Shown here one piece after another: positions 5,254-7,880 of a DNA stretch of 11,613 nucleotides; the first letter of the stretch is position 1, and every line of letters starts with the position of its first letter. The DNA is taken from NCBI GenBank assembly GCA_003483125.1, contig DMWU01000040.1, forward strand, positions 1 to 11,613. Reading direction: 5' to 3'. The notes below the pieces were generated by a model. It saw only the letters and a list, made by a program, of their open reading frames with translations, had not been told where the DNA came from and searched no databases. The DNA is from Erythrobacter sp. (GTDB taxonomy: Bacteria; Pseudomonadota; Alphaproteobacteria; Sphingomonadales; Sphingomonadaceae). The position numbers and the translations under genes were made by a program.

Positions 5254-6036
5254 ATGGCAGGCAGAGTTGCTGGAAAACTGGCATTGATAACGGGCGCTGC
5301 GCAGGGGTTGGGCGAGGCCCATTCGCGAAGACTGGCTGAAGAGGGTGCCCGCGTCCTTTGCACAGACATAAATGAGGCTGGAGCTGCGGAAACCGCCGCC
5401 GCGATCAATGCCGAGCTTGGCGATGGTACTGCCTTCTCTTGTCGGCATGACGTAACTAACCGCGATGATTGGGAGGCGGCAGTCGATGCTGCACGCGAAA
5501 ACCTGGGTGGCCTGAATGTGTTGGTGAACAATGCAGGCATGGGCGTTGCCGGCAATATTGAGACATGCGTGTTCGAAGACTGGCAACGTTGCTTCTCGGT
5601 CAATGTCGATTCAATCTTTCATGGCTGTCAAAAGGCCTTGCCGCTGATGCGTGAACACGCGCCTGGTTCAATCATCAATATCAGCTCGATCGCAGGGCTG
5701 ATCGCCAGCGACACCATGCCGGCCTATAATGCATCCAAGGCTGCGGTATGGATGCTAAGCAAGTCGATAGCATTGCATTGCGCGAAGAATAACATGCAGA
5801 TCCGCTGCAATTCGGTCCATCCGACATTCGTGGATACGCCCATCCTGGATGGTACGGCGAAACACCACAATCTCGACAAGAATGTTTTGATGGAAAAGCT
5901 GGCTCGTCAAATCCCGCTGAAATTTGTCGGGGAGCCAAATGACATCGCCAATGCGGTAGTTTACCTGGCTAGCGATGAGAGCCGTTTCATGACCGGTGCG
6001 GAGCTAAAGCTCGACGGCGGAATTTCGGCCATGTAG
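5254..6036 (+). CDS. Short-chain dehydrogenase/reductase (classical SDR)
   Basis: This is a cytosolic NAD(P)-dependent oxidoreductase of the classical SDR family, 260 residues long against a usual length of about 250. The Rossmann motif is T13-G14-A-A-Q-G18-L-G20, NNAG is at 92-95, and the catalytic tetrad is Asn117, Ser145, Tyr158 and Lys162. Asp38 at the end of the second strand (VLCTDIN) favours NAD(H) over NADP(H). The C-terminal region has the family features HPTFVDTP (189-196), DIANAVVYLASDESRFMTG (230-248) and LDGG. It looks like the 3-alpha/20-beta-hydroxysteroid or cyclic-alcohol dehydrogenase branch, but substrate cannot be read from sequence. ATG at 5254 has GAGAGG (5241-5246) seven bases upstream and sits two bases after the Nudix stop. 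It is the last gene of the lemA operon, ahead of a strong hairpin. Confidence 0.94.
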   Translation: MAGRVAGKLALITGAAQGLGEAHSRRLAEEGARVLCTDINEAGAAETAAAINAELGDGTAFSCRHDVTNRDDWEAAVDAARENLGGLNVLVNNAGMGVAGNIETCVFEDWQRCFSVNVDSIFHGCQKALPLMREHAPGSIINISSIAGLIASDTMPAYNASKAAVWMLSKSIALHCAKNNMQIRCNSVHPTFVDTPILDGTAKHHNLDKNVLMEKLARQIPLKFVGEPNDIANAVVYLASDESRFMTGAELKLDGGISAM

Positions 6037-6044
6037 AAATGGTG

Positions 6045-6070
6045 AAGAGGGCGGGAACCCCCACCCTCTT
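6045..6070. terminator. Terminator hairpin between the SDR gene and the pspC-like gene
   Basis: AAGAGGG (6045-6051) pairs with CCCTCTT (6064-6070), and after one C-A mismatch GGG (6053-6055) pairs with CCC (6060-6062), leaving a 4-base loop. It starts eight bases after the SDR stop. On the plus strand the 3' arm runs into TTT. It also touches the stop codon of the convergent pspC-like gene, so it may serve both directions, although the minus-strand side has no T-run. Confidence 0.7.
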
Positions 6071-6288
6071 TAATCCGCGATCAACGCGATCGCGAGATAT
6101 ACTAGGATCAGCGAACCGAAACCGATCAGCGTACCGAGCACGAAGCCGACGCGGACGAGAGTGGTGTCAATCCCGAAATAGTTGGCAATGCCTGAGCAAA
6201 CGCCGAAGACTTTGCCATTCGTCTTATCCAGGTGGAAGCCTTCACGAACTGGCGGTCCACCTGATGGTTGAGGTGTAATCGGGCTCAT
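6070..6288 (-). CDS. PspC-domain protein (72 aa)
   Basis: PspC is an inner-membrane partner of the phage shock response that senses envelope stress. This short version has a proline-rich N-terminus (MSPITPQPSGGPP) and then the PspC core: FHLDKTNGKVFGVCSGIANY (18-37), FGIDTTLVRVGF (38-49) and one membrane segment (about 48-70) ending LIALIAD-like (IALIAD). E. coli PspC is about 119 residues and carries a further periplasmic part; only the PspC domain is present here. ATG at 6288 has GGAG (6299-6296) seven bases upstream, and its ATG overlaps the TGA of the preceding 39-aa gene (ATGA), so the two are translationally coupled. No pspA, pspB or pspF is in the window. The cassette appears to be driven by a sigma-54 promoter at 6624-6640. 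Confidence 0.9.
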   Translation of the reverse strand: MSPITPQPSGGPPVREGFHLDKTNGKVFGVCSGIANYFGIDTTLVRVGFVLGTLIGFGSLILVYLAIALIAD

Positions 6289-6404
6289 ACGAGAACTCCA
6301 AGAGTTGGACTTGCTGGCACAATCGCAGTTGCCATAGCAACGAATGAGAGTGCAAGGGCCGAAACGGCTGCCATCACTCGATTGCCCGTTTCAGAGTTAA
6401 ACAT
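6285..6404 (-). CDS. 39-aa hydrophobic peptide, second of a tandem pair
   Basis: Translation is MFNSETGNRVMAAVSALALS, then FVAMATAIVPASPTLGVLV. ATG at 6404 has AGGAAA (6415-6410) as ribosome binding site. A polar head of about 10 residues is followed by a hydrophobic segment (11-30) and a short PASP-containing end, so it is either a single-pass membrane peptide or a small exported peptide. Coding is supported by clear similarity to the peptide encoded at 6442-6561 and by the ATGA overlap with the pspC-like gene. The same frame stays open 51 codons further upstream, but that extension covers the neighbouring peptide gene in another frame and has no start signal. The function is unknown; the position suggests a role with the PspC protein in the membrane. 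Confidence 0.75.
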   Translation of the reverse strand: MFNSETGNRVMAAVSALALSFVAMATAIVPASPTLGVLV

Positions 6405-6441
6405 TTTTCTTTCCTTTCGAATTTCTGCGCTAGCTGCGCAA

Positions 6442-6561
6442 TTAGGCGATAAGACCGGCTGGGGTAGCTGGGATGATTGCGGTGGCCATGAAAACTGCCG
6501 AAATGGCAAGTGCGGAAACAGCGGCGAAGAAGCGGCTGGTTGTGTCAGTAGTTGCAAACAT
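6442..6561 (-). CDS. 39-aa hydrophobic peptide, first of a tandem pair
   Basis: Translation is MFATTDTTSRFFAAVSALAI, then SAVFMATAIIPATPAGLIA. It has exactly the same length as the gene at 6285-6404. After a one-residue offset the two share AAVSALA, S-x-V-x-MATAI and PA-x-P, with mostly conservative changes between. This points to a tandem duplication with the reading frame kept under selection. The ribosome binding site is weak (GAG at 6568-6566). The gene is 37 bases upstream of its sister and about 52 bases downstream of the predicted sigma-54 start. Such short genes are often left out by automatic annotation. It has a polar head, one hydrophobic segment (about 11-31) and a Pro/Thr end. 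I cannot assign a function. Confidence 0.72.
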   Translation of the reverse strand: MFATTDTTSRFFAAVSALAISAVFMATAIIPATPAGLIA

Positions 6562-6589
6562 TGTTACTCAATTCCCTTATTTAGTTTCT

Positions 6590-6610
6590 CCGGAGGGCCA
6601 ATCCCTTCGG
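6590..6610 (-). other. Hairpin at the predicted 5' end of the peptide-pspC transcript
   Basis: On the minus strand CCGAAGGG (6610-6603) pairs with CCCTCCGG (6597-6590) around a 5-base loop, with one A-C mismatch. No T-run follows, so it is not a terminator for this strand. The predicted sigma-54 start at about 6613 would put the hairpin at the very 5' end of the transcript, where such structures commonly protect RNA from decay. Confidence 0.4.
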
Positions 6611-6623
6611 ATACCAAATACAT

Positions 6624-6640
6624 TGCAGGTACCGTGCCAA
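6624..6640 (-). promoter_or_regulatory. Sigma-54 (-24/-12) promoter for the peptide-pspC cassette
   Basis: The minus strand reads TTGGCACGGTACCTGCA (6640-6624). It matches the sigma-54 consensus TTGGCACG-N4-TTGCA with one mismatch (C for T in the -12 box). The invariant GG (6638-6637) and GC (6626-6625) are separated by the required 10 bases. Start would be near 6613, about 52 bases before the first peptide ATG. E. coli psp genes are sigma-54 dependent and activated by PspF, which agrees with a PspC gene downstream. The upstream stretch (about 6640-6690) is AT-rich, as needed for a DNA bend. Confidence 0.65.
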
Positions 6641-6702
6641 ACTCTTTTATTTGTTATTATTCAATGATATAAGGATATTTGCCCGCTTAATGAGATGTTC
6701 AC

Positions 6703-6723
6703 AAATCCGAACGATTGGGATTT
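6703..6723. promoter_or_regulatory. Inverted repeat, candidate activator site
   Basis: AAATCC (6703-6708) and GGATTT (6718-6723) are perfect inverted arms around 9 bases. Each arm lies close to a TTCAC element (6699-6703 and 6724-6728). The centre is about 100 bases upstream of the predicted sigma-54 start, the usual distance for an enhancer-binding protein such as PspF. It also lies about 90 bases before the recF start, so it could instead affect recF. Confidence 0.4.
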
Positions 6724-6803
6724 TTCACCAACATTAGGTATTGCGGATATTGTAAATGCACCGATGGTCAAACAGTGCGGTGCGCTCTAGGCAAAATAGA
6801 TCC

Positions 6804-7880
6804 ATGGCTCTCGACCGAATATCCCTGGCCGACTTTCGGAATCACCGCGCAAGTGAGCTTGCGGCCACCAGCCATTTCAACCTGCTGATTGGGGAGAATG
6901 GTGCGGGCAAGACCAACGTGCTCGAGGCGATATCGCTTATCGCACCGGGGCGCGGACTGCGCCGTGCTGCGCTACAAGACCTGCCCGGCCCCGGCGGCGG
7001 TGGCGGCTTCGCCATTGGCGCCAGCTTGAAAGAGCAAGGACACGAGAGTGCGAGACTGGGAACCTTTATCGATCCGCAGGCTCCGCGTAGGCGGCAAGTC
7101 CGCATCAATGGGGCGGATGCACGTGGGAGCGAGCTTGGCGAGTGGTTTGCACTAAGCTGGCTGACCCCCGCATTGGACGGCCTGTTTACCGATAGCGCTG
7201 GTGCCCGTAGGCGATACCTAGACAGAATGGCCCTCGCCCTCGAGCCGGCCCATGCCCACAATGTCTCACGTTTTGAGGGAGCGCTACGCGAAAGGAACAA
7301 GCTGCTCGAAACCGGGGCAGAAGCGACCTGGCTTGACGCCATTGAGGCTCAGGCGGCCGAATATGGTGCGTTGGTCGCAGCCGGAAGATCCGATGTAGTC
7401 GCGCGATTGAGCGACGAGCTTTCCACTCTTCCCGATGAACCTTTTGCCCGCCCAATCCTCACATACCGCGCTGGCGGCCCAACCGACCGACAAGATCTTG
7501 CAAATGATCTGCGCAATAACCGCACTCGCGATCGCGCGGCAGGACGCGCGCTAAGCGGGCCTCAGCGTGACGAGCTGGAAGTTGTTATGGCGGGAAGCGG
7601 TCAGCCAGCGGCATCCTGTTCGACCGGAGAGCAAAAGGCGATGTTGATCGCCATCACGCTCGCCCATGCCGATCTCGCATCTGAGGGGCGACCATGCGTA
7701 TTGCTGCTCGACGAAGTGGCCGCCCATCTCGACCCTGTCAGGCGTAGCGCCTTGTTTGACCGGCTTCGCCGCGGGCGAGCGCAAGTCTGGATGTCAGGCA
7801 CTGAGGTAGCACCCTTTGAAGAAGTTATGAATGAAGCGGCCGTTTGGCGGGTAAGTGACGGAACCGTGGAGAGACTCTAA
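6804..7880 (+). CDS. recF: DNA replication and repair protein RecF
   Basis: RecF is an SMC-like ATPase that, with RecO and RecR, loads RecA at single-strand gaps. The 358-residue product fits the family length (about 355-385). It opens with the family start LDRISLADFRNHR and has Walker A GENGAGKT (30-37), the DxF-type core SWLTPALDGLFTDSAGARRR, the lid/signature region LSGPQRDEL, STGEQKAMLIAI, and Walker B LLLDEVAAHLD. ATG at 6804 was chosen because it gives the conserved N-terminus. An ATG at 6756 in frame would add 16 unrelated residues, and neither start has a good ribosome binding site. A weak promoter candidate is TTCACC (6724-6729) with TATTGT (6748-6753), 18 bases apart. It is not beside dnaA or dnaN. 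Its 3' end overlaps the convergent tesA stop by four bases. Confidence 0.96.
   Translation: MALDRISLADFRNHRASELAATSHFNLLIGENGAGKTNVLEAISLIAPGRGLRRAALQDLPGPGGGGGFAIGASLKEQGHESARLGTFIDPQAPRRRQVRINGADARGSELGEWFALSWLTPALDGLFTDSAGARRRYLDRMALALEPAHAHNVSRFEGALRERNKLLETGAEATWLDAIEAQAAEYGALVAAGRSDVVARLSDELSTLPDEPFARPILTYRAGGPTDRQDLANDLRNNRTRDRAAGRALSGPQRDELEVVMAGSGQPAASCSTGEQKAMLIAITLAHADLASEGRPCVLLLDEVAAHLDPVRRSALFDRLRRGRAQVWMSGTEVAPFEEVMNEAAVWRVSDGTVERL

Follow-up and report, generated by a model that had tools for sequence, protein, structure and literature searches.

The window (the whole stretch of 11,613 nucleotides that was analysed) comes from an Erythrobacter sp. assembly of 1.9 Mb in 310 contigs that is 80% complete. 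On its minus strand there is a compact cassette of small genes (Table 1). A preliminary description of this DNA had reported a near-consensus sigma-54 site, two related hydrophobic ORFs of 39 aa and a PspC-domain gene that overlaps the last stop codon, and all of these are present. The two peptides are 53% identical to each other. The ATG of the PspC gene and the stop of peptide 2 share the bases ATGA. On the upstream side recF is transcribed away from the cassette, and at the other end an SDR gene converges on pspC. The same order, from divergent recF through a sigma-54 site to one or more peptides and PspC, was found again in most of the loci that were fetched. A GC-rich inverted repeat noticed by eye (6046 to 6069) lies where pspC and the SDR gene converge and could perhaps be a shared terminator. 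A tmRNA gene of the alphaproteobacterial type, permuted and in two pieces, is located at 1665 to 2008 of the minus strand. Searches with PADLOC and against PDB sequences returned nothing useful.

Table 1. Features of the peptide cassette and its divergent neighbour
Feature	Position	Strand	Basis
Pair of enhancer-like half-sites (CCTAATGTTGG and CCCAATCGTTCGG), where PspF probably binds	6707..6738	-	Matrix from 28 psp promoters
Sigma-54 (-24/-12) promoter, TTGGCACGGTACCTGCA	6624..6640	-	12/13 consensus positions; position conserved in relatives
Possible stem-loop near the transcript 5' end	6589..6611	-	Enrichment family-wide; window alone z -0.72, not significant
Peptide 1, 39 aa, predicted single membrane helix	6442..6561	-	Frame, conservation, dN/dS, model
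Peptide 2, 39 aa, diverged paralogue of peptide 1	6285..6404	-	Frame, comparison, dN/dS
Short PspC-domain protein, 72 aa	6070..6288	-	PF04024, E 2.5e-17, 62.9 bits
recF, divergent neighbour	6756..7880	+	Start probably 6804, by eye, from relatives

Small hydrophobic peptides as genes

Relatives of the peptides were found beyond the strain itself. A single-sequence search recovered them in 34 of 61 genomes, which comprised 34 of the 37 genomes from the same GTDB genus and none of the 24 from other families of the order. Within Sphingomonadaceae, the GTDB family of the window, a profile of 17 rows (E<=0.01) gave matches, some of them weak, in 111 of 397 genomes and in 39 of the 96 genera sampled. 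An alignment of 28 sequences matched 951 proteins at E<=0.001, and no Pfam domain was recorded in any of the 120 listed among them. Some of the database copies are named 'recombination protein F' or 'enoyl-CoA hydratase' in NCBI or UniRef. These names were evidently borrowed from neighbouring genes.

The loci that were collected contain 253 distinct peptide coding sequences of 35-56 aa, for which an ATG start and a length under 60 aa were criteria of selection and not results. On the Kyte-Doolittle scale, all 253 exceed 1.6 over a stretch of 19 aa. Asp, Glu, Lys, Arg and His are all missing after position 12 in 223 of them, and 221 end with alanine. Peptide 1 was modelled as a single helix spanning residues 2-32, with a mean pLDDT of 75. 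Among pairs of equal length with a DNA identity of 70-97%, dN/dS is 0.23 over 91 independent pairs and 0.27 when 1047 pairs are pooled. Substitutions within the peptide frames are mainly synonymous, which together with the recurring order of the locus indicates more than chance. The low dN/dS and the conservation rule out chance ORFs, and on these comparisons the peptides are real genes. The preliminary description had named a lack of conservation and a neutral substitution ratio as outcomes that would count against it, and neither was seen.

When 28 members of the family were compared with Pfam and NCBIfam, only sub-threshold and unrelated matches were obtained, with no family of the PspG or PspD type. 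The peptides also do not match the PspB models PF06667 and TIGR02976. Among the matches listed in searches of open-licence papers, no title or abstract opening deals with them. They are undescribed small membrane components as far as was searched, in keeping with the preliminary description. It had also suggested that they could stand in for PspB. PspB is encoded as a separate gene in the same genome (L073:4479-4772 of the minus strand, contig C68), and therefore this role is ruled out.

Sigma-54 promoters and putative PspF sites

The promoter TTGGCACGGTACCTGCA is the sole site in the window with at least 12 of the 13 consensus positions, and the mean number of such sites in 300 mononucleotide shuffles was 0.06. 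Peptide operons were counted with peptides at E<1e-3 and under 60 aa, which gave 133 distinct operons. A site with at least 11 of 13 positions is present in 126 of these, and in 123 of the 126 the first ATG is 70-84 nt after the start of the site. The seven operons that lack a site are L054, L129 and L130, where the peptide is within about 25 nt of the start of the stretch, and L072, L083, L135 and L174. At L174 the first peptide (E 0.0014) falls below the cut, and a sigma-54 site does precede that peptide. Across the same loci, sites with at least 12 of 13 positions number 151 near these genes versus nine elsewhere in 2.0 million strand-bases. Four exact sigma-54-like sites were identified in the host genome, two of which are inside ORFs and were set aside. 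No sigma-70-like promoter was found at 5900-6900 of the window.

The psp promoters themselves served as the reference for enhancer sites. Psp loci were taken from 30 genomes, and a sigma-54 site was recognised in 28 (none in L178 and L194). In all 28 promoters, the second half-site starts exactly 77 nt before the sigma-54 17-mer. The psp matrix scores best within 1 nt of this place in 117 of the 121 promoters of peptide-pspC units and in 14 of the 15 peptide promoters where no PspC was recognised. The promoters counted are not phylogenetically independent; 85 of the 121 and 14 of the 15 are left at under 75% identity. One of 122 peptide-pspC promoters was too short to be included and L104 contributed two sites; the other 15 include L160, L163 and the near copies L127 and L128. 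With the upstream region reversed as a control, the psp position was best in 2 of 121 and 0 of 15. This control is weakened by the motif being partly symmetrical, as the reversed regions peak 2 nt away in 21 of 121. In the window, the best match is 1 nt off the psp position and its score is barely positive (0.11).

The candidate regulator is encoded in the same genome. The preliminary description had noted the absence of pspA, pspB and pspF, which is true of the window, but the three genes are on contig C68 of the same assembly. PspF, PspA, PspB and a full-length PspC from this contig pass the NCBIfam cut-offs, and the PspF gene is divergent from the psp operon. In the part of the study that was consulted, phage shock protein genes are described for all Qipengyuania strains studied (PMC9241875). 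A search for rpoN in the 80%-complete host assembly did not find it; the gene is present in 59 of the 61 genomes of the set, the other miss being G013. With the sigma-54 promoter, the psp-type enhancer sites and the psp genes on contig C68, it is very probable that the unit is a satellite operon under PspF and sigma-54, in line with the earlier proposal of a satellite to a psp regulon encoded elsewhere. Its regulation by sigma-54 and PspF is well supported by the sequence, with PspF predicted to bind at the half-sites.

The first transcribed bases may also have a structure. Stems of five or more Watson-Crick pairs are present in 78 of 126 distinct leaders, versus a mean of 16.5 and a maximum of 27 in 200 mononucleotide shuffles, and in none of 28 psp leaders. 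For the leader in the window, 46 of 200 shuffles fold equally well. No pairs emerged when the aligned leaders were folded to a consensus. An apical motif occurs in 72 of the 126 leaders, and among 51 non-redundant ones 70% are paired in register versus 29-58% when the register is slid; the window leader is without this motif. A hairpin before every peptide was ruled out, as 117 inter-peptide spacers fold weakly (mean -2.3 kcal/mol). Thus, the hairpin in the spacer of the window (-8.3) is peculiar to it. A palindrome centred on GAATTC is found 18 nt before the 17-mer in 62 of 122 peptide-pspC promoters, 6 of 15 other peptide promoters and 6 of 28 psp promoters. It is missing from the window promoter. 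The palindrome might mark a bend or be bound by a second regulator.

Operon architecture and peptides of psp operons

The peptides had been described as coupled to PspC. This holds for 115 of the 133 operons, in which PspC follows one peptide (31), two peptides (66) or three peptides (18), and it does not hold for the other 18. Since these 18 operons have no PspC after the peptides, the peptides are the constant part of the unit, and their strict dependence on PspC is ruled out. Among the 18, L160 and L163 adjoin recF with no PspC recognised there, and L072, L129, L130 and L135 have no visible sigma-54 site. The remaining twelve have a site and are away from recF (L010, L013, L018, L031-L034, L077, L081, L127, L136, and L152). 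Neighbourhoods were viewed for part of the 18, and L018 and L077 apparently share one setting, as do L031, L033 and L034. The third peptide gene of the host genome is one of the PspC-free cases (L072:5124-5243 of the minus strand, contig C70). It has no recognised sigma-54 site and is followed by a 159-aa ORF; by eye, the stretch before it looks like the spacer before peptide 2. In another observation, L127, L128, L129 and L130 of one genome are near-identical PspC-free cassettes located in inverted orientation at the two ends of each of two contigs, with 414 nt at 97% and 505 nt at 95%. This could be an inversion site or an assembly break.

When the peptides of two-peptide operons were compared across operons, with operons over 90% identical excluded, peptide 1 or 2 found its best match at the same position of another operon in 127 of 132 cases. 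The duplication noted in the preliminary description therefore appears to be old, and the copies form a diverged pair. The last peptide ends with ATGA in 83 of the 115 PspC-linked operons, and in 83 of 83 the PspC reading frame runs from that ATG. The PspC protein of the window passes the gathering cut-off of PF04024 (25 bits). Against the full-length equivalog TIGR02978 it scores 55.8 bits over positions 5-59 of 121 and does not pass the cut-off of 104.

Psp operons also begin with a small peptide. In the host genome, the first gene of the psp operon encodes a 50-aa hydrophobic peptide with an SKLG motif (L073:5724-5876 of the minus strand), and it opens all 28 psp operons with a recognised sigma-54 site in the window's genus. 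By profile comparison (2% and 1%) it is not recognisably related to the peptides of the window, and homology between them was rejected. After pspB and pspC in the same host operon there are five extra small ORFs (L073:2596-4071), some with PspB-like or PspC-like stretches below the cut-offs.

The profile had no match in 286 genomes of the family; 20 of these were examined, and 19 have a PspC match. Eight of their PspC loci have no pspA within the 1.5 kb retrieved. Each of the eight has a sigma-54 site, five adjoin recF, and at seven a small hydrophobic ORF of 28-44 aa precedes PspC (none at L278). The same set gave 21 pspA loci, with two operons counted twice. A sigma-54 site is present at 15, and 14 of the 15 open with a small hydrophobic ORF; in the other six no site is visible in the available sequence, and no ORF was found at L268. 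In profile comparisons, the window family matches the peptides of the pspC loci in these profile-missed genera at 95% and the peptides that open psp operons at 58%. The best two single peptides from psp operons match it at E 4e-5 and 1e-3, and several others score within the range of shuffled decoys, the best of which reached 0.04. Because of this, a common origin of the window family and the psp-operon peptides is suggestive only.

It can be asked whether the peptides are translated leaders that set downstream expression by translational coupling, with their sequence mattering little. The frequent in-frame overlap with PspC would suit such a role, as would the small ORF at the start of psp operons and the quick divergence of the peptide sequences from genus to genus. 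Against this, 18 operons have no PspC after the peptides. The dN/dS of 0.23 and the distinct identities kept by the tandem copies also argue against it, and leaders of this kind are unlikely.

Possible roles in the phage shock response

The cassette is probably a satellite unit of the PSP regulon that is driven by PspF and sigma-54, with the peptides serving as PSP effectors of the inner membrane. Envelope stress would free PspF, which is encoded on another contig. PspF would then bind the two upstream sites and drive the sigma-54 polymerase at the promoter. The transcript would yield two single-helix inner-membrane peptides and, through the stop/start overlap, the short PspC. Within the inner membrane the two peptides would most likely work as a non-identical pair, with PspC or beside it, and could help to maintain a tight bilayer or to position PspA/PspC. 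It is possible that a PspF/sigma-54 unit with a leading small membrane peptide gave rise to the satellite copies, with or without a short PspC. On the best reading, the peptides would be fast-evolving single-helix effectors of the phage-shock regulon, often as an old non-identical pair.

At about half the length of PspG, the peptides have a partial counterpart in that protein. PspG of Escherichia coli, like the cassette, is an inner-membrane protein made from a separate PspF/sigma-54 unit and is regarded as a PSP effector in the parts covered of two papers (PMC2763126, PMC3709507). It has two predicted transmembrane helices according to the consulted part of the first (PMC2763126), whereas one helix is predicted here. 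Unlike PspG, the peptides are in tandem, are usually followed by PspC and match no PSP family. The regulator and partner proteins of the pspFABC operon are the same as those found in the host genome; its reported variants, in the portion of the survey covered, have PspB duplicates, PspD and Toastrack, with no small peptides opening the unit (PMC11237479). The text of that survey contains no word beginning with 'Sphingo', and no such peptides were seen in the parts covered of two PSP surveys (PMC11237479, PMC9239133).

YohP and similar proteins are, like these peptides, tiny hydrophobic membrane proteins that are tied to stress and the PSP response, as set out in the part of PMC12719787 that was consulted. 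There, YohP lowers the membrane potential of E. coli, raises PspA/PspC and so triggers the response, whereas the peptides here are predicted members of the PspF regulon. They could likewise be stress-induced depolarisers (YohP-like or TisB-like) that reduce the membrane potential and slow the cell down, in which case PspC would be made alongside them to limit the damage. Their size, hydrophobicity, and tandem and scattered copies fit this. Charged residues matter for such peptides in the same portion of the paper (PMC12719787), yet there is almost no charge after position 12. For a type I toxin of the TisB/Hok kind, no antitoxin RNA was indicated by an Rfam match at the locus or by a sigma-70-like promoter within 5900-6900. 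A depolariser under PSP control would also feed back on its own inducer, and this role appears improbable.

Sigma-54 promoters serve many activators, and with PspF binding predicted from sequence and a low enhancer score in the window, an activator other than PspF could drive a stress-related cassette outside the PSP regulon, but the psp-type motif at the psp distance, even in promoters without a recognised PspC, and PspC as the usual partner gene make this very unlikely.

The role as PSP effectors can tentatively be extended to the whole of Sphingomonadaceae, although this wider reading is doubtful. Nearly every PspF/sigma-54 unit, the psp operon included, might be headed by between one and three membrane peptides, each a single helix and quick to evolve, in a class whose position and regulation are better conserved than its sequence. 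They would often be ancient non-identical partners, would also occur as scattered PspC-free cassettes, and would be the first-made effectors of the phage shock response. Work on PSP centres on PspA, PspB, PspC and PspG in the parts of the literature that were consulted. If true, tiny membrane peptides that are under selection, are regulated by stress and head PSP units would add an overlooked layer to the response, one hidden by the annotation names mentioned above. They would also be an example of small proteins that can still be recognised by position and regulation after sequence similarity has faded. In other families of the order, 19 psp loci were viewed, and the small ORF, where found, is non-hydrophobic. 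Many of these psp operons (L231-L249) open with an arginine-rich ORF of about 50-60 aa.
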